A stretch of DNA of 64,000 nt from Idiomarina aquatica (lineage in GTDB: Bacteria; Pseudomonadota; Gammaproteobacteria; Enterobacterales; Alteromonadaceae), in NCBI RefSeq assembly GCF_004362895.1, contig NZ_SNXI01000003.1, positions 1 to 64,000 on the forward strand, given 5' to 3'. The notes below the pieces were generated by a model that was not told the DNA's origin, searched no databases, and worked only from the letters and a program-made list of their open reading frames with translations. The translations under genes and the position numbers were made by a program. This document shows, piece by piece, positions 11,822-21,401 of this stretch. The first letter of the stretch is position 1, and each line of letters opens with the position of its first letter.

Positions 11822-14500
11822 CTAGAACTCACGTTTATAAGTAAGCGAGAAACTTACTCCACGTGTCTCTGAACGCAACAGCGTATTATCAAACTCAATC
11901 TCTTTATCCTGGTTCAACATGTTCTGAACTTTGAGGGTAATTTGCGAGTTAAAGTCTGGATAATAGCTGTACACCGCATCCAGTGAATGGAAGGGTTGCT
12001 CAAACGAATCGCCACGGCCATCGATACCCGGAATGATAATACGGTCACCGAATACGTTATACACTAACGACGCCGAGTGCATGCCGTCATCTGAATCGAA
12101 GCCTAACTGCGTATTCACCACCCACTCTGAATGACCCGTTAAGCGCCGCTCTGTATTGGTGATTGAGGTTGATACACCGGTTTGCTCAACAATGTTCTGT
12201 GTGTCGAGTGTAATGCTTGAATCGCTTAACGTAACGTTACCCGAGACAAAGAAGTTATTACTTAAGCTCTTCAGCCATTCCACTTCAGTACCGTACACTT
12301 CGCCGGTCTCAGCGTTGGCAATACGCACCAGCGGCGGACCATCCTGCGACGGTGACTGTACCGATTCAATCGGGTTTGTCATGTCTTTATAGAAAAACCC
12401 GACTGATAAGGTATCTCCATTGTCCTGGTACCATTCCCAACGCGCATCAAAGTTATTGATATCGGTTGTTTCCAAACCTGGAGTACCACCTACCGGGAAC
12501 AACGTCAGTGGATCCAGGTAGGTTGAACTGGACACTTCACGCAGATCCGGACGCACCACGGTTTTACCGTAGCTAAACCGTAGTTGTTGCTCGTCAGTCA
12601 AAAAGTAAGTCAGCGCCAGTGACGGGTACAAATCATCTTCCTGGAACGCCAGATCCACTAAGTCCTGTGCATCAGGGCTTGTCGGCAGGTCTATTTCGCC
12701 CGACTGCGGAATTAACGGTACCACTACCTGACGAAAATCTTCCCAACGAACACCGGCAGTAACCCGCCATTTTTCATCAAAGAAAAAATCACCTTCAAAA
12801 TAGTACGCGTCAATCGCCTGAGCAGAGATATAGTCATCCCCCGCAACCGTCGTGTCGTTAAGAATCGGCAAAAAGCCCAACTCCGCATCCGCAATGACGT
12901 TGTCGTTGAGGATTTCGCCTAGCTGATAGCCTTCCAGCACGCTTGAGTCACTGAATGCACGGGTGTTGATATCAAAACGACGGTTGGTTGCGTAGCGCGT
13001 TTTCTGTACAAAGTCAGCGCCCGCCTTCAGGGTAATATCCCAGCTGTCTAACATAATCGGCAGCGTTACATTCCCGCCCCAGTTTTCGACCTGGTCATTC
13101 AAATCCTGAAAGTTGTAACGTGCAGCCGTTGTCGCATTGGTTAAAACACTCTCGTTTTCGCGATCGAAGGTTCCGTCATCGTTGCGATCCGTCAAAATGA
13201 AACGGGTTTCGATATTGCCCGGTGCATAACGGCTTGAACGTGACTTCGAGTATTTCCAGTCAACGCCTAAGAAGTTCCAGTCGGTAAAGGTATGCATGCC
13301 TTTAACTTGATTCGCCACCATGCGACGCTCCTGATAGGTCACATCGTATGAACGGATACGCTGGTCAGAACCAAAGTTAATATTGTTACTGTTACCGAGC
13401 TTTTCACGGAACTGATCTTCGGTGTCATTTAAAATAACATGGCTAAAATCGACTTTATGGTTACTGCCGTAATTAATACCGGCGGTAAACATTCCGGACC
13501 AGGTTACCTGCTGTTCGGTCGACTCAACATCATCCCAGCCACGCAAAATGGTGTAGGTGCCATCCGGGTTAAGACTCCAGTCTTCACCTAAGTATTGCTC
13601 CGACACTTCCCACTCGTTGTCATACGCAGCTGTGGCTAAAAATCCAATAGCCCATTTGTCGTCGATGTCATAACGATTGCCATAGGTCAGATCCAGACCA
13701 TAATCCGGGTCAATCGTTTGTAGGCTTGGGTCATAATCGCGATTTAACGCCAACGCAACATCGCGGTTTTGCTCTAACGAAATATCATCCAGGAATGTAC
13801 GTTGATCCCACAGGCTCTGCAGCATTTGTGGTGCAGCACGGGTCCCATCGTCTTTGCCGTTCCAGTTACTGCCGCCGTCATACCAGTAGGCGTCATCAAA
13901 GTTTTCGCTGTTTCCACCCACTTTGACTGATGCATTAAAGACTTCTTCGCTGGGCGCTGATTTCAAGCGGATATCAACATTACCACCGCCAAAGTTGGCG
14001 GGCATAGATGCCGAATAGGATTTTTGCACGGCCAGGCTTTCAATGATGTCAGCCGGGAATAAATCCAGTGGGATTACCGCGCGGGTAGGATCCGGGCTAG
14101 GTACTGACATACCATTGAGCTGAGTACTGGAGTACCGTTCACCCAAACCACGCACATAAATGAATTTGCCGTCCACCAGCGTTAAGCCCGTTACCCGACG
14201 AAGTGCCGCTGCCGCATCGCTGTCACCGGTACGGGAAATCTGCTCAGCACCCATGATGTCAGCAACAAACGCTTGCTCTTTGCGTTCCTGCACTACCGCC
14301 GCAGCACTGCCTTGTAATCGGGTACCCGTGGTTACAACTTCTTCGATAACCGTTTCGGGTGAGGCTTGTTGTTCAGTAGCAGAAGATTGTTCAGTAACAG
14401 ATTGCTCCTGCTGTTCTTGTAATGCATACGCACTTTGCGATGACAAGCCCGTTAAAACCGCAAGAGTAAGGCTCGCCAGAGGAAATTGTTTGGCTCGCAT
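11822..14500 (-). CDS. TonB-dependent outer-membrane receptor
   Basis: 892 residues from the ATG at 14500, which follows AAAGAGG; the protein then starts with a signal peptide cut near SAYALQ. A TonB-box-like ETVIEEVVTTG lies at about residues 50-60. Next come the plug domain (LRRVTGLTLVDGKFIYVRG, about 65-190) and a 22-strand-type barrel ending in a C-terminal Phe (KREF). It imports a ligand across the outer membrane with TonB energy. It lies 76 bases after a large lipoprotein gene on the same strand, which carries a PhoB box, so a phosphorus-containing substrate is a reasonable inference. The hairpin between the two genes may reduce its expression. Confidence 0.88.
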   Translation of the reverse strand: MRAKQFPLASLTLAVLTGLSSQSAYALQEQQEQSVTEQSSATEQQASPETVIEEVVTTGTRLQGSAAAVVQERKEQAFVADIMGAEQISRTGDSDAAAALRRVTGLTLVDGKFIYVRGLGERYSSTQLNGMSVPSPDPTRAVIPLDLFPADIIESLAVQKSYSASMPANFGGGNVDIRLKSAPSEEVFNASVKVGGNSENFDDAYWYDGGSNWNGKDDGTRAAPQMLQSLWDQRTFLDDISLEQNRDVALALNRDYDPSLQTIDPDYGLDLTYGNRYDIDDKWAIGFLATAAYDNEWEVSEQYLGEDWSLNPDGTYTILRGWDDVESTEQQVTWSGMFTAGINYGSNHKVDFSHVILNDTEDQFREKLGNSNNINFGSDQRIRSYDVTYQERRMVANQVKGMHTFTDWNFLGVDWKYSKSRSSRYAPGNIETRFILTDRNDDGTFDRENESVLTNATTAARYNFQDLNDQVENWGGNVTLPIMLDSWDITLKAGADFVQKTRYATNRRFDINTRAFSDSSVLEGYQLGEILNDNVIADAELGFLPILNDTTVAGDDYISAQAIDAYYFEGDFFFDEKWRVTAGVRWEDFRQVVVPLIPQSGEIDLPTSPDAQDLVDLAFQEDDLYPSLALTYFLTDEQQLRFSYGKTVVRPDLREVSSSTYLDPLTLFPVGGTPGLETTDINNFDARWEWYQDNGDTLSVGFFYKDMTNPIESVQSPSQDGPPLVRIANAETGEVYGTEVEWLKSLSNNFFVSGNVTLSDSSITLDTQNIVEQTGVSTSITNTERRLTGHSEWVVNTQLGFDSDDGMHSASLVYNVFGDRIIIPGIDGRGDSFEQPFHSLDAVYSYYPDFNSQITLKVQNMLNQDKEIEFDNTLLRSETRGVSFSLTYKREF

Positions 14501-14527: not shown

Positions 14528-14565
14528 AAAACCGGGGCACACAATCCTTTGCGTGCCCGCGGTTT
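14528..14565 (-). terminator. Attenuator-like hairpin between the lipoprotein and receptor genes
   Basis: On the minus strand AAACCGCGGGCAC pairs, with small mismatches, with GTGTGCCCCGGTTTT, ending in four T. It could be a partial terminator that lets some transcripts continue into the receptor gene. Confidence 0.5.
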
Positions 14566-14576
14566 AGGGTGCGGTG

Positions 14577-17339
14577 TTATTCCAGACCTACTGTCCAGCC
14601 TGCAGTCCAGTCGTTATCGCTGCTTACTGCGCCAACAAAGTCTGCGTTGTCAAAGAAGGTATCGCCACTTAAGTCAGCAGCTGCCGCGTCCGTTGCGGTT
14701 ACAATGCCTTCCAGTGCTTCAGCGGCTGTCACAACACTGTTGCCTTGCTGACCCAGGAACCACTGTTCAAGGTCTACGTCAGACGTGCCAAACTTGAAGT
14801 TTTCGCCGTTATCACATGCCATGACCGAGTGCGTCATGCTGATGCCGCCATCCTGCAAGTGACCCTGGCTGACCGGGTTGTTCTCAACTTCTAAACACTC
14901 TCCCATACCGGCAGGGCCTGATACGATGGTGTTGTAGAAAGTCGCCTGAGTACCTTCGCGCAAGTAGATACCTTCAGATGAGTTCTCGCCGGCAAAGGTG
15001 TTTCCGATAATTGTCAGGTTAGCCAGTGTCGGGCTCGACATAGGTTCAGCTGCCGGGTTAGAACCGTCGTTATCCGCTTCGATACCACGGTTCGCGTCTG
15101 AGTTGTCCGGATTCTGGCGTACCAGTACATATTGCAATTTACCCTGATAACCGTTATCCCAATCGATGCTGTCGTCCTGCATGTTGGTCAGCACTACATA
15201 CTTGAAGTTAACGTTACCACCGAACATTTCGATGCCATCATCCGAGTTGTTGTGCACTTGAATGTACTCGACGGTTGTACCTGAACCGACACCACCAAAA
15301 GTGATACCGTTTAATTCGTTGTCAGGTGCAATTTCGAAGCCACCGTTCATGACACGCACGTAACGCAAAGTACCCGAGCTATCAGCGCTATCTGTACCAC
15401 CGAACACCGCGCCTTCTTCAGCACCTTCAACTTGCAGCGCACAGTCAGAGCCATCTGACGGACATTTATTGCTTGGTGCATTACCCAATACAATCAAACC
15501 GCCCCATTGCCCTGGCATACCTTCGCCGCTTTCTACATCAATTGAAGAGGTTAATGAGATAGGTTCCTCTGCAGTACCTTGTGCGTCAATTTCTGAACCA
15601 CGACTGATGACCAGGTAGTCATTACCCGTGCGGCCATAGACCGTAACACCTGGTTCAATGGTTAATGTTGCAGAATCAACGTTGTCGCCGCCAATAAATA
15701 CCGGACCAGTCAGCGCGTAGAAATTGCCTGCTGTTAATGTCAGATCATCCGTGTAACGACCTTCTAATTCACAAGTTGTCGTTGAACCATCAATAGGCGT
15801 GATAGCTTCAGTGCCGGCCGGGCAACCGGCTACCGGTGCTTCTGAACCACCAGCAGTCACTTCACCGCCGCCAAAACCAAACGCCCAGCCTTGACGCCAA
15901 TCGTCGCTGCCACCGACAGCACCGATAAAGTCGACCGCTTCAAAGAAGCTACCGTCAACCGTATTCGAAACGTCCTGACCTGCGCCCAGCAATGGAGAGC
16001 CGCTCATTGGCTGGCCATTGGCAGATAACATCACTGACTCACTGATAAAGTTGTTCGCCTGGTCGTTTAAGAACCAGTCTTCCAGGTTTACGTCCGTGTC
16101 GCCGTACTTAAAGTTCTCGCCATTTGAACAGGCAAATACCGAGTTTTCCATACGGATGGTATTGTCAGCCAGGTGTCCCTGAGATACCGGATTGCCCTCG
16201 ACTTCAAAGCATTCACCCATTTCTGATGGCCCGGTTACTACTGTGTTGTAAAACTGAGCGCCCGTACCTTCACGTAGGTAAATGCCCTCTGACGAATTCT
16301 CGCCCTGGAAGTTATTACCAACGATGGTCAGGTTAGCAAGAATAGGGTTAGACATAGGTTCAGCAGCAGGGTTAGAACCGTCGTTATCGGCTTCGATACC
16401 ACGGTTTGCGTCGCCACCGTTTTTATCATGCTCCACATATACAAACTGCATGCGGCCGCGATAACCGTTATCCCAGTCGATGCTGTCATCTTGCATACCG
16501 GTTAACACGACATGTTTAAAGTCGACGTTACCACCAAACATTTCGATGCCATCATCTGAGTTACCATGAACTTGCAAGTACTCGACCGTAGTACCTGAAC
16601 CGACGCCGCCAAAAGTAATACCGTTTAATTCGTTATCCGGGGCAATTTCAAAGCCACCGTGTTTGACCACTAAATAACGAAGTACGCCTGAGTTGTCGGT
16701 CTCATCGCTACCGCCAAATACTGCGCCTTCTTCTGCACCTTCCACTTGCAGCGCACAGTCAGAGCCATCCGACGGGCATTTGTTGCTTGGCGCGTTACCT
16801 AAAATGATGAAGCCGCCCCACTGTCCCGGTGCTGTTTCCTCGCCCAGAACATCCTGCGAAGAGGTCATGATGATCGGCGCGTCTGCAGTACCTTCTGCCA
16901 TGATTTGCGAATCACGGCTAACAACTAAATAATCGTTGCCCTGGCGACCGAAAATAACCGTACCCGGCTCAACGGTAAGTACCGCTGAATCCGTTTTGTC
17001 GCCGCCCACAAAAGTTGGGCCGTCAATGGCATACATAACCGTTGTGCCGTCTTCAAGGCTGTTGATTAACGTTGTGTCTGCTGTAATGCGTCCTGAAAGA
17101 ACCTGAACCTGAACTTCTTCGCCCAAGGCTTCTGACGCTGCAAGCGACAATGAGCCACTGGTTTCGCCTGGTAAGTCAACACCGGTGTCACCGCCGGTAT
17201 CTCCACCATTGTCACCACCTGTACCCGGGTCCGGCTGTTCTACCGTGGCACCGGTATCAATATTAATGTCGCCGCCGCAACCTGCCAGAGCAAGTGCTGC
17301 CGCAACAGCAGAAGCTTTAAATAACGTTTGAAGTTTCAT
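14577..17339 (-). CDS. Large repeat-containing surface lipoprotein of the TonB receptor operon
   Basis: 920 residues with a lipoprotein signal ending LALAGC (Cys21), then a Gly/Asp linker (GGDNGGDTGGDTGVD). Two long homologous halves follow (about 80-480 and 515-920). Both contain GFEIAPDNELNGITFGG, DDGIEMFGGNV, DDSIDWDNGY and GIEADNDGSNPAAEP, and both have Cys pairs at CPSDGSDC. The pattern suggests right-handed parallel beta-helix repeats, one per half. Relatives are sometimes labelled multidrug transporter in databases, which the sequence does not support. With the receptor downstream and a PhoB box upstream, it may capture or process a phosphorus source at the cell surface; that is inference. 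Confidence 0.75.
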   Translation of the reverse strand: MKLQTLFKASAVAAALALAGCGGDINIDTGATVEQPDPGTGGDNGGDTGGDTGVDLPGETSGSLSLAASEALGEEVQVQVLSGRITADTTLINSLEDGTTVMYAIDGPTFVGGDKTDSAVLTVEPGTVIFGRQGNDYLVVSRDSQIMAEGTADAPIIMTSSQDVLGEETAPGQWGGFIILGNAPSNKCPSDGSDCALQVEGAEEGAVFGGSDETDNSGVLRYLVVKHGGFEIAPDNELNGITFGGVGSGTTVEYLQVHGNSDDGIEMFGGNVDFKHVVLTGMQDDSIDWDNGYRGRMQFVYVEHDKNGGDANRGIEADNDGSNPAAEPMSNPILANLTIVGNNFQGENSSEGIYLREGTGAQFYNTVVTGPSEMGECFEVEGNPVSQGHLADNTIRMENSVFACSNGENFKYGDTDVNLEDWFLNDQANNFISESVMLSANGQPMSGSPLLGAGQDVSNTVDGSFFEAVDFIGAVGGSDDWRQGWAFGFGGGEVTAGGSEAPVAGCPAGTEAITPIDGSTTTCELEGRYTDDLTLTAGNFYALTGPVFIGGDNVDSATLTIEPGVTVYGRTGNDYLVISRGSEIDAQGTAEEPISLTSSIDVESGEGMPGQWGGLIVLGNAPSNKCPSDGSDCALQVEGAEEGAVFGGTDSADSSGTLRYVRVMNGGFEIAPDNELNGITFGGVGSGTTVEYIQVHNNSDDGIEMFGGNVNFKYVVLTNMQDDSIDWDNGYQGKLQYVLVRQNPDNSDANRGIEADNDGSNPAAEPMSSPTLANLTIIGNTFAGENSSEGIYLREGTQATFYNTIVSGPAGMGECLEVENNPVSQGHLQDGGISMTHSVMACDNGENFKFGTSDVDLEQWFLGQQGNSVVTAAEALEGIVTATDAAAADLSGDTFFDNADFVGAVSSDNDWTAGWTVGLE
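14580..17102 (-). repeat. Internal tandem duplication within the lipoprotein gene
   Basis: The segments of roughly 15900-17100 and 14580-15800 encode homologous ~400-residue halves. Long stretches are nearly identical at both protein and DNA level, including the block from CPSDGSDCALQVEGAEEGAV to GGVGSGTTVEY. This indicates a duplication kept in register, possibly maintained by gene conversion. Confidence 0.8.
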
Positions 17340-17401
17340 TGAGTTCTCCCGACCTTCTATTTTCGGTTTTGAATTGACGGGAGCGAGGTTAGTCAGCTTG
17401 C

Positions 17402-17419
17402 GTGACAGATATGTGACAA
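17402..17419 (-). promoter_or_regulatory. PhoB box upstream of the lipoprotein/TonB receptor operon
   Basis: On the minus strand TTGTCAC-ATAT-CTGTCAC forms two 7-base direct repeats spaced by four bases, very close to the PhoB consensus CTGTCAT-N4-CTGTCAT. Ten bases further on is TAACCT, a possible -10, which matches the layout of PhoB-activated promoters where the box replaces the -35. The gene starts 63 bases downstream. A weaker CTGTCAT half-site on the plus strand (17428) faces the other way. Confidence 0.75.
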
Positions 17420-17519: not shown

Positions 17520-18362
17520 ATGAAAAAGCTTTTGCTTGCAACGGCTGTTGCCGTGAGTTTTTCAAGTTTTGCACAAGACCGTTTTGCCGATGTACAAATT
17601 AATGCTGAAGAAGTTGGTACTAATGTCCATATGTTGACGGGTGCCGGCGGCAACATGGCGTTAATGCCCGGACCCGATGGCGTGCTGCTTATCGATGACC
17701 AGTACACGCAATTGGCCGATAAAATTGGTAGTAAAGTCAACGAACTGACCGGTGAAGATGTGCGCTATGTCATCAATACGCATTTTCATGGCGACCACGT
17801 CGGCTCAAATATGTGGCTGCGTCAAAACCATGATGCAACCATTTTAGCTCACGATAACGTGCGTGAACGGTTAAGCAGTGATAGTGATTTTGACACGGCC
17901 GGCCTGCCGCAACTCACCTTTGACTCAACCGTTACACTGCACATCAATGGCGATACCGTACACGTATTTTACCTGCCTAATGGCCACACCGATGGTGATG
18001 TCGCCGTGTGGTTTGAAGAGGCCAACGTTCTGCATCCGGGCGATCTATTTTTTAACGAGCGCTTTCCGTTTATCGACTTAGGTAGCGGCGGTGACGTCGA
18101 TGGCTACATCGAGAATGTCGAGACGCTGATCAGTAAGATTAACGATGATACGGTCATCATTCCGGGCCATGGCCCTAAAGCAACGCGCGCCGATTACCAA
18201 CGCTTTGTTAATATGATCAAAGAAACCAAAGCAGAAGTTGATGCAATGCGTAATCAGGGTATGGCATTAGAGGATGCGCTGGGTAACGGCCTCAGTGAGA
18301 AGTGGAGCCCGTGGGCCTGGAACTTCATCACCGAGGAACGTTGGATTAAAACACTCTACTAA
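17520..18362 (+). CDS. Secreted metallo-beta-lactamase-fold hydrolase
   Basis: 280 residues with a signal peptide ending near SSFAQ, so periplasmic or exported. The zinc ligands are clear: HFHGDHVGSN (HxHxDH), GHTDGD, and the late His in IIPGHGP. A subclass-B3-like beta-lactamase or a quorum/lactone hydrolase is possible, but the closest look is the broad group of secreted MBL hydrolases of unknown substrate. AGGAAAT lies before the ATG. It is divergent from the PhoB-box operon and shares the 180-base intergenic region; whether phosphate also controls it is open. Confidence 0.8.
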   Translation: MKKLLLATAVAVSFSSFAQDRFADVQINAEEVGTNVHMLTGAGGNMALMPGPDGVLLIDDQYTQLADKIGSKVNELTGEDVRYVINTHFHGDHVGSNMWLRQNHDATILAHDNVRERLSSDSDFDTAGLPQLTFDSTVTLHINGDTVHVFYLPNGHTDGDVAVWFEEANVLHPGDLFFNERFPFIDLGSGGDVDGYIENVETLISKINDDTVIIPGHGPKATRADYQRFVNMIKETKAEVDAMRNQGMALEDALGNGLSEKWSPWAWNFITEERWIKTLY

Positions 18363-18364
18363 GT

Positions 18365-20200
18365 CTATATTAGCCGAAATTCCATGGCCAACTCATCGCA
18401 GTTGGCCTTTTTCGGGCACAACTCACAGTCCTTCATCACCTTTTCCGGCAGTGTATCCTTGCTGCAATGACTAAAGTTTTGTTGTTCAAAAAAGTCCGGT
18501 ACCCGGGTTAATACGATCACCCGTTTTAAGTGTAACCGGCGGGCTTTATCCAGTAGCTTTTCTACTAATAAGCGCCCCTGGCCTTTGACACTACTTTTGG
18601 GATTAACGCCTAACGAACGAATTTCTGCCAGCCCTGTGGTGTAGATATAGAGTGACGCGCAGCCCATCACCTGGCCATCAATTTCGGTCACCGCGAACTC
18701 ATTAATCGAATGAATAATATCGTCTTTAGCCCGCGGTAGGTTTTCGCCTGCCATCGCCCAATGCCCGACTAAGCCGACAATTGCGTCAATGTCTGACAGA
18801 TTGGCATCGCGCACGCTAATCTGTTGCTGTTGCCGAACTTTTTTTAACGCAGAGGTTACCTGCTGCCTTGACGTGCCGCCCAGTGCCTGACGTTTACTTA
18901 ACAAAGATTCAAGCGAAAGCCACTCATAGACATCCTCGCGGATATTGGCGTTTACGCGTTGCAATTGGCTTAGCGCCAATGCCTCCAGTGGTTGGCGTTG
19001 GCTAATGGCTAATTGCACCAGCTCACCGACCTGGTGATGTGCCTGCCTAAAAGGAACGCCTTTTGCGACCAGATAGTCGGCAAGTTCGGTTGCGTTGGCG
19101 TAGCCTTGTTGTGCAGCCTCTCGACAACGCTGATGATTAACCGTAAGCCCGCTCAAACATTGGCTGGTGATCTGAAGCGCCGCACGCCAGTGCTTTAGCG
19201 CATCAAACAAGCCTTCTTTGTCTTCCTGCAGATCTTTGTTGTAGGCCAACGGCAACGACTTCAACGTCATTGTCATCGCCATCAACGCGCCGGTCACCCG
19301 TCCCGTTTTACCCCGCACTAACTCCAGCGCGTCAGGGTTTTTCTTTTGCGGCATTAATGATGACCCTGAGGTTACGTCATCGGCCATCTCGATAAACCCG
19401 GCTTCGCCGCTGTTATAAAAAATCAGATCTTCAGTCAGGCGCGACAGGTGTAACATCGACAACGACGCTGTGCTTAACAGTTCAATGACATAATCACGGT
19501 CAGATACCGCATCTAAACTATTTAAACAGGGCTGGTCAAAGCCCAGTTGGTGAGCCAATTGCCGGCGGTCGATCGCATAAGCGGTTCCGGCCAGCGCGCC
19601 ACATCCCAGCGGCGACTGATTCAACCGCTTTAAGGCATCCGTTAACCGTTCCAGATCGCGTTTAAGCATTTCCACATAAGCCAAAGCCCAATGCGAAAAC
19701 AGCACCGGCTGCGCCCGCTGCAAATGGGTATACCCCGGAATAACCGCATCTATTTCACGCTCTGCTAAAAGTGCTAACTGCTGCTGTAAGTCGCTCAAGT
19801 TCTGGGTTAAATCAGTCACTTGCTGACGACACCATAACCGTAAATCAGTCGCTACCTGGTCGTTACGGCTACGCCCGGTATGTAGCTTTTTACCCAGGTC
19901 GCCAACCAGCGCGACTAATTCCCGCTCAACAAAAGAATGGATATCTTCATCGCCTGCCTTAGCTATCGCAGACGGGTTAGACTTTAACCTTTGCCACAGC
20001 TGCTGCAGTGCCTGCTGCAACTGGTTACATTCCTGCGCCGTTAACACGCCTACCTGGCGCAAAGCATCAGCCCAGGCGATAGAGCCTTGTATATCTTGCT
20101 CTGCCAGCACATAGTCAAACGGCAACGAGTCGTTAAACGCCTGAAATGCCTCACTGGGACCGTTGGCAAAACGCCCGCCCCAAAGTTTTGCGTCAGCCAT
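18365..20200 (-). CDS. argH: Bifunctional argininosuccinate lyase / N-acetylglutamate synthase (ArgH-ArgA fusion)
   Basis: 611 residues. Residues 1-460 are argininosuccinate lyase, with the fumarase-superfamily signature [18 protein letters not shown] and the [15 protein letters not shown] region. It splits argininosuccinate into arginine and fumarate. From about residue 465 a GNAT acetyltransferase domain follows ([36 protein letters not shown]), which makes N-acetylglutamate for the start of the pathway. Such ArgH(A) fusions are known from marine gammaproteobacteria such as Moritella and Idiomarina relatives. The start at 20200 follows GGGAGG and overlaps argG by eight bases. It is the last gene of argCBFGH. 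Confidence 0.93.
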
Positions 20201-21401
20201 CAACACCTCCCTGCTGTTGCAGTGCAGCAATCCGGCTTGGCAACGAGAACAGCCGAATAAAGCCTTCGGCGTGTTGCTGGTTATACACTTCATCCGCACC
20301 AAAGGTCGCGAAATCCTCGCTGTATAAAGAGTACGGTGAGCGTTTTTTTACTGCAGTGACCTGGCCTTTATAAAGCTTTAACACCACGTCCCCGCTGGCA
20401 CGCATCGTTAATGCCTCGGCGCCCGCTAAAACCGATTGTTTAAGCGGGGTGAACCAGCGCCCATCATAGAGTAATTGCGCAAATTGCTCGGACAGTGAGG
20501 CTTTCCAGCTGCGGCTGGCCTTATCTAAAACCAGCTCATCGATCGCCTGCAACGCCGTCATCATCACGGTGCCGCCAGGCGTCTCGTAACAACCACGGCT
20601 TTTCATACCGACCAACCGGTTTTCGACGATATCGACACGCCCTACACCGTGTTTGGCTGCCAACTGGTTGAGTGTCTCCAAACAGTCGTAGGGTGAAAGT
20701 GCGTCGCCATTGATTGATTTAATTTCACCCGCCGCTATCGCAACAGTTACATACTCAGGCTGGTCAGGGGCTTGCTCCGGCGACTGAGTTAGTGTCCAAA
20801 CCTGCTCACTCGGTTCGCACCAGAGGTCTTCAAGCTCGCCGCCCTCGTGCGAGATATGCCAGGCATTGGCATCACGGCTATAAATTTTTGTTGCCGACGC
20901 CGAACAGGGGATATGCCGTTCGGCCAAATAATTCAATAACGACTCGCGGCTATCCAACGACCACTCCCGCCACGGCGCAATCACCTGTAGGTCGGGTGCC
21001 AGCGCTGCATAGCAACTCTCAAAACGAACCTGATCGTTACCTTTACCGGTACAACCATGCGCCAGCGCATCTGCCCCGACTTTGCGTGCCACCTCGACTT
21101 GCGCTTTAGCGATGATCGGCCGCGCCATGGCAGTACCCAGTAAATAGGTGCCTTCATAAATCGCGCCGGTTTTTAAGGTCGGATAAATGTAGTCTTTAAC
21201 AAAGACATCTTTTAAATCGACCACATGGCATTCGCTGGCACCTGAGGCTTTCGCCTTTGCTTCAACGCCTGCTAATTCGTCAGCTCCCTGACCAACATCT
21301 GCCACAAACGCAACCACCTCGCAGTCATAATTTTCTTTTAACCACGGCACGATGGCAGAGGTGTCGAGACCACCAGAATAGGCTAATACAACTTTTTTCA
21401 T
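20193..21401 (-). CDS. argG: Argininosuccinate synthase
   Basis: 402 residues. The N-terminal P-loop pyrophosphatase motif [20 protein letters not shown] binds ATP, and [13 protein letters not shown] is the second conserved block. It joins citrulline and aspartate with ATP to give argininosuccinate, the substrate of the fused ArgH just downstream. The start overlaps the argF stop (21398-21401) and its end overlaps argH, so the three genes are translationally linked. Length and motifs are typical. Confidence 0.95.

Follow-up and report, generated by a model that had tools for sequence, protein, structure and literature searches.

A two-unit beta-helix lipoprotein and its neighbouring TonB-dependent receptor with a probable PhoB-controlled promoter in Idiomarina aquatica

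The routes by which bacteria move large organophosphorus compounds across their outer membrane are poorly understood. In Caulobacter crescentus, the gene order elpS-cc0171-gspC sets a lipoprotein gene beside a receptor gene and T2SS genes; ElpS (CC0170), a protein of about 50 kDa, is described as being made under phosphate starvation, its overproduction is associated with raised activity of secreted alkaline phosphatase, and the receptor gene cc0171 is called constitutive, unlike elpS (PMC2996285). According to a 2024 study, the PhoB regulon of Caulobacter includes various TonB receptors (PMC11208175). The FI, FII and FIII proteins of Flavobacterium johnsoniae (PUSIII, PUSIV) are described as beta-helix-like outer-membrane lipoproteins induced by low phosphate, 31-36% identical (50-54% coverage) to the Caulobacter lipoprotein; FI and FII were modelled as polygalacturonase-like, and FII lies with a TonB transporter in the phoBR cluster (PMC8115612).

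The locus compared here with these systems lies in a window of 64,000 nucleotides of Idiomarina aquatica (contig NZ_SNXI01000003.1, positions 1 to 64,000; Table 1). The family to which it belongs is not new: it is a variant of a known, functionally unexplained phosphate-starvation family. The initial annotation had called the uptake system not described in detail, which holds for the substrate but not for the relatives, since both Caulobacter ElpS/CC0171 (PMC2996285) and Flavobacterium FI/FII (PMC8115612) have been reported. Like ElpS and CC0171, the window pair consists of a phosphate-linked lipoprotein next to a TonB receptor; it differs from that pair in having two units and 920 aa in its lipoprotein, a clear Pho box of the gammaproteobacterial type and, linked to it, a TonB2-type operon. 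The Flavobacterium proteins, from another phylum, resemble the window protein by their published description. SusCD and PusCD are alike in outline, joining a surface lipoprotein to a TonB transporter (PMC8115612), whereas the window lipoprotein is a beta-helix protein without a SusD-type Pfam match. Within the terms searched, we found no literature on the two-unit form, the conserved Pho promoter, the linked TonB2-type operon or the hairpin between the genes, and none within the collection and terms searched on a lipoprotein-receptor pair in Alteromonadales; the available portions of PMC12282109, PMC2536512, PMC3400609 and PMC7029141 contain no description of such a pair.

Table 1. Features of the lipoprotein-receptor locus, with coordinates in the 64,000-nucleotide window
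Feature	Position	Strand	Basis
Putative PhoB box, 7-mers TTGTCAC / CTGTCAC, 4 nt apart	17402..17419	(-)	Reading of the sequence, motif scans and conservation
-10-like hexamer TAACCT, 10 nt after the box	17386..17391	(-)	T-A-n-n-n-T at the same spacing in 34/34 fitted sites
Two-unit beta-helix lipoprotein gene, 920 aa	14577..17339	(-)	ORF, Pfam, structure prediction; signal peptide and lipobox by eye
N-terminal beta-helix unit, residues 76-490	15870..17114	(-)	Unit alignment, model
C-terminal beta-helix unit, residues 505-920	14580..15827	(-)	Unit alignment, model; Pfam Beta_helix at residues 678-761
Hairpin between the lipoprotein and receptor genes	14532..14562	(-)	Folding compared with shuffles
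TonB-dependent receptor gene	11822..14500	(-)	Pfam Plug and barrel; start moved to ATG 14500

The large lipoprotein with two homologous halves proposed from the sequence was confirmed. Its product starts with a lipoprotein signal and the lipobox LAGC (C21), both read by eye, and the N and C units are identical at 264 of 410 positions (64%); the closest named orthologues, in Idiomarina aquatica and I. seosinensis, are 95% identical. A structure prediction, suggested at the outset as a check, was run with AlphaFold and returned two beta-helices (mean pLDDT 83.9, pTM 0.54). Across 111 units, the acids of the motifs DD..E (D262, D263, E266) and DD..D (D284, D285, D288), the acid E316 and cysteines 188, 195, 377 and 404 are each at least 97% conserved. 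The acids probably line one face of the beta-helix, because they precede short strands of successive turns in the strand list of the model.

The predicted right-handed beta-helix is the fold of PL6 and GH28 proteins and is common to many unrelated functions. Foldseek gave PL6 alginate lyases as the best matches (E 1.9e-5), and the VIA matches were tied at Z 18-22 among NosD, AlgE epimerases, PL6 lyases, GH28 and phage tailspikes, a tie in which no enzyme family is ahead and which is no evidence of absence. Since lyases, hydrolases, epimerases, tailspikes and NosD match alike, both an enzyme and a pure binder are possible. The lipoprotein might be a surface enzyme, a polysaccharide lyase or hydrolase by type, that opens glycans which bear or hide phosphorus, with the receptor importing the oligosaccharides and phosphorus being gained indirectly. 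This is a reading that we consider rather unlikely: the fold matches to PL6, AlgE and GH28, the conserved acids and the polygalacturonase-like models published for Flavobacterium FI/FII (PMC8115612) speak for it, whereas the same fold includes non-enzymes such as NosD and adhesins, and sequence and profile searches of the structure database gave no match to a solved enzyme. The sequence search of solved structures returned a single insignificant match (E 0.4), the profile searches returned none (A2 at E 0.01; A3 at E 1e-10), and Pfam found on the lipoprotein only Beta_helix, with LTD at E 0.064 falling below its cut-off.

The TonB receptor expected beside the lipoprotein was also found, although its gene falls outside the 14577-17419 segment first described. 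The listed GTG start at 14542 looks too early, because the ATG at 14500 opens a signal-peptide-like stretch. Against TIGR01782 (TonB-Xanth-Caul) the receptor scores 211.5 bits, below the cut-off of 310, and in its structure model the plug is poor (mean pLDDT 69.5). In each of the 33 named loci, the receptor gene comes next after the lipoprotein gene and has the same orientation. The initial annotation had treated the two genes as an operon, which is likely given their common strand and the gap of 76 nt; a stable hairpin sits in that gap. The hairpin reaches z < -2 in 34 of 34 sequences, in 30 of which none of 40 shuffles is as low, compared with 5/34 for the 95 nt upstream and 1/34 inside the gene; these counts treat near-identical relatives separately, and the hairpin sequences differ between genera. 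Its effect may be to stabilise the lipoprotein mRNA or to reduce the amount of receptor made.

Upstream of the lipoprotein start, the box with a -10 at the right distance that had been read from the sequence was recovered as TTGTCACATATCTGTCAC (TTGTCAC-ATAT-CTGTCAC), its two TGTCA-type repeats lying in the 11-bp register of the Pho regulon. PhoB and PhoR are encoded in the genome, both above curated cut-offs. With up to three mismatches to CTGTCACN4CTGTCAC, the window holds 10 sites against 3.9 expected, and the box, at one mismatch, is the best of these. Genome-wide (2.95 Mb), YTGTCAYN4YTGTCAY without a required -10 gives 6 exact sites, and with at most one mismatch 19 sites against 14 for the reversed pattern, so that the bare 18-mer is close to chance. 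The box, spacer and -10 together clearly exceed chance: TGTMAYN5TGTCAYN10TANNNT, which fixes the spacing, has 5 sites in the genome and none in the reversed control. These five precede the lipoprotein gene, pstS, pstC, a PhoD-like gene and a GGDEF/EAL/CBS gene, and the 10-nt spacing from box to -10 is common to the lipoprotein promoter and the pstS and pstC promoters of this genome.

A first motif was fitted on the window and the 33 named loci, turned to the gene strand (n = 34), and box, 10-nt spacer and T-A-n-n-n-T were fitted in all 34. The second half-site TGTCA is exact in 33 of them; the site of L071 is weak (13.8 bits), and L072, L073, L074 and L087 have an altered first half-site, CTAAAAC. 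Since that fit chooses the highest-scoring site of each promoter and had the window in its training set, we trained a second matrix only on the 27 loci outside Idiomarina. Scanned with it, the window site ranks first in 64 kb (19.4 bits; runner-up 5.9 bits), and within 19 kb around the phoBR-pst genes of the same genome the top three sites precede pstC (21.1 bits), pstS (15.9 bits) and phoB (11.5 bits). The site before the PhoD-like gene scores 10.2 bits and that before the GGDEF/EAL/CBS gene just 0.1 bits. Among 12 loci with other protein forms (L092-L103), the lipoprotein promoter is the first site in eight, at 11.8 bits or more, and the second-best in L094 (8.7 bits); it comes first but weakly in L099 (5.1 bits), is weak in L100 (3.4 bits) and has no matrix site in L101, these last three lacking a clear box.

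The sites before the GGDEF/EAL/CBS and PhoD-like genes lie on other contigs of this genome. An exact box and -10 (L107:4470-4535, contig C25) end 47 nt before the likely ATG (4535) of the GGDEF/EAL/CBS gene, hinting at a phosphate-controlled cyclic-di-GMP enzyme. At divergent promoters on contig C39 (L108:538-668), an exact box precedes the PhoD-like gene and, in the other direction, a one-mismatch box precedes a calcineurin-like phosphoesterase gene.

The pair is also linked to the phosphate genes. A phoB, a phoR and a pstS-type gene lie upstream of it in 16 of the 33 named loci, with one extra gene between in five of these 16; family membership was verified with curated models for the L079 representatives and taken from BLAST clustering for the other members. 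Genes like the DUF3450 and ExbB-fusion genes of I. aquatica follow the receptor in 15 of the 33 and precede the lipoprotein gene in L071, so that they are adjacent in 16 overall. These linkage counts are lower bounds, because some loci end at contig ends. In I. aquatica itself, the distance between phoB and the lipoprotein gene is 84 kb, within a single contig; next to phoBR, at 87-92 kb from the pair and outside the window, stands a TonB2-type operon of six genes in the order DUF3450 - ExbB fusion - exbB - exbD - tonB - TPR (ExbD by eye). Its neighbours are a porin gene, a permease-like gene (by eye) and phoB-phoR-pstS-pstC-pstA-pstB-phoU. The order is that of ttpB2-ttpC2-exbB2-exbD2-tonB2-ttpD2 of Vibrio vulnificus; the TonB2 operon is described as iron/Fur-regulated in Vibrio (PMC6957404), whereas the one in I. 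aquatica adjoins phoBR-pst. Its only box has one mismatch and falls outside the top five matrix hits of that region.

Collectively, the promoter conservation (34/34), the cross-prediction by the matrix, the strict pattern (5 against 0) and the phoB-phoR-pstS linkage (16/33) strongly support the phosphate-starvation control suggested in the initial annotation, and on this comparative sequence evidence the promoter at 17386-17419 is very probably PhoB-controlled. That the box is a chance match or the site of another regulator, with the pair serving an unrelated nutrient, is very improbable. The near-chance frequency of the bare 18-mer and the iron regulation of TonB2-type systems in Vibrio (PMC6957404) would fit such an explanation, but they have to be set against a conserved promoter, a matrix that cross-predicts the pst, phoB and phoD promoters, and the linkage to phoB-phoR-pstS.

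Other genes were noted around these loci. The gene at 17520-18362 of the window, divergent from the pair, encodes a metallo-beta-lactamase-fold product with a signal-peptide-like start and is a neighbour in some Idiomarina only; we considered it as a part of the system and rejected it, as it adjoins the pair in just two of the 33 named loci, plus L095 and L096. Beyond it, 18365-20302 encodes an argininosuccinate lyase with an acetyltransferase-like C-terminal extension (by eye). The porin gene between the TonB2-type operon and phoB is a Porin_4 gene (L091:10520-11539). A polyphosphate kinase 1 gene, divergent, adjoins the pair in Colwellia sp. C2M11 (L074:2572-4713). Upstream of the pair in L080 (1379-4693) lie PhoU-like/DUF47-type, Pit-type transporter and porin-like genes (by eye); the Pit match is below cut-offs, and the same gene clusters are found in L081 and L083.

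Of 19 genomes of the genus, that of I. aquatica included, seven have the 920-aa form and 11 a form with one unit and about 530-540 aa; the remaining genome gave no match. All five loci fetched from the 11 single-unit genomes have the lipoprotein and receptor genes, a box (exact in four, with a mismatch in the fifth) and TAnnnT at the 10-nt spacing. A tree built from 107 units separates the N units of the 34 orthologues from their C units (clade support 0.99 and 0.98), implying one old doubling in these proteins. The four units of L100 and L101 cluster together (support 1.0); the tree as drawn also pairs, as sisters, the two units of each of six two-unit proteins found outside the class. It therefore appears that either the unit was doubled repeatedly or units underwent gene conversion.

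Across the phylum, the unit profile matches 59 of 398 genomes, about 10 of them weakly. Among 20 distant loci fetched, the receptor is adjacent in 19, the exception being L151, and in L150, L153 and L157 the receptor gene comes first and the lipoprotein gene second. The profile matches L147, L154 and L155 at E 1e-170 to 3e-188, and L139 and L146 at 1e-100 and 2e-92. T2SS genes come after the pair in L139, L146, L147 and L154, and those of L155 are close by on the opposite strand (confirmed as GspC, D and E in L154, D and E in L139, and D in L146, L147 and L155); this is the arrangement published for elpS (PMC2996285). Kinship of the window lipoprotein to CC0170 rests on gene order and on homology to those T2SS-linked loci. 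The I. aquatica pair is not directly upstream of T2SS genes, GspD being on contig C2 and the pair on C3, and we therefore regard it as a relative and not as elpS proper.

Another reading is that the lipoprotein serves secreted phosphatases as an accessory, stimulating or holding them in the way suggested for ElpS, and that the receptor takes up something else. The increased activity of secreted alkaline phosphatase associated with ElpS overproduction (PMC2996285) is in keeping with this idea, but adjacency to the receptor in 33/33 named and 19/20 distant loci points to joint work, and no phosphatase gene stands beside the pair among the neighbours identified in the loci read. We consider it improbable.

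We propose instead that the pair is a PhoB-activated outer-membrane scavenging system, a reading to which we assign a probability of roughly 70%. The likeliest role for the pair is to import a macromolecule that carries phosphorus. The initial annotation had suggested a phosphorus-rich polymer or organophosphate as the cargo, which fits phosphate control; the mostly acidic conserved residues, however, do not by themselves predict a phosphate-binding groove. The evidence for scavenging includes the polyphosphate kinase gene beside the pair in L074 and the low-phosphate induction described for published relatives. Points against it are the acidic conserved residues, the tied fold matches, the constitutive cc0171 described in Caulobacter, the weak site of L071, the altered first half-site in L072, L073, L074 and L087, and L099-L101 without a clear box, as well as the TonB2-type operon with its one-mismatch box only and the 0.1 bits of the GGDEF/EAL site.

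From the computed promoter conservation, linkage, homology and predicted fold, we infer PhoB binding, the surface position, import and the ligand in the following model. (i) Expression. Under phosphate shortage, phosphorylated PhoB would bind 17402-17419 and recruit RNA polymerase to the TAACCT -10; the lipoprotein would be produced ahead of the receptor, and the gap hairpin may cause it to be produced in larger amounts. (ii) Capture. A flexible tether rich in G/D/T would hold the two beta-helix units at the cell surface, where the conserved acidic face may bind, and perhaps cut, a phosphorus-bearing macromolecule or its carbohydrate carrier, possibly with metal ions. (iii) Import and release. 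The TonB receptor would import the product with energy from the six-gene TonB2-type operon beside phoBR, and Pho-regulon phosphatases, such as the PhoD-like protein, would then release phosphate for PstSCAB. More tentatively, the locus could be the phosphate-controlled analogue, in Gammaproteobacteria, of a polysaccharide utilisation locus. A two-unit beta-helix lipoprotein would capture a macromolecular organophosphate at the surface and pass it on to a TonB receptor energised by a dedicated TonB2 complex that is phosphate-linked, and the capturing unit would have been doubled several times independently.

The pair is widespread in the Alteromonadales genomes examined and has links to phoBR-pst and to an energiser that looks dedicated. 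It brings the unexplained lipoproteins of Caulobacter and Flavobacterium together in a single family, whose conserved residues are open to mutation and growth tests.
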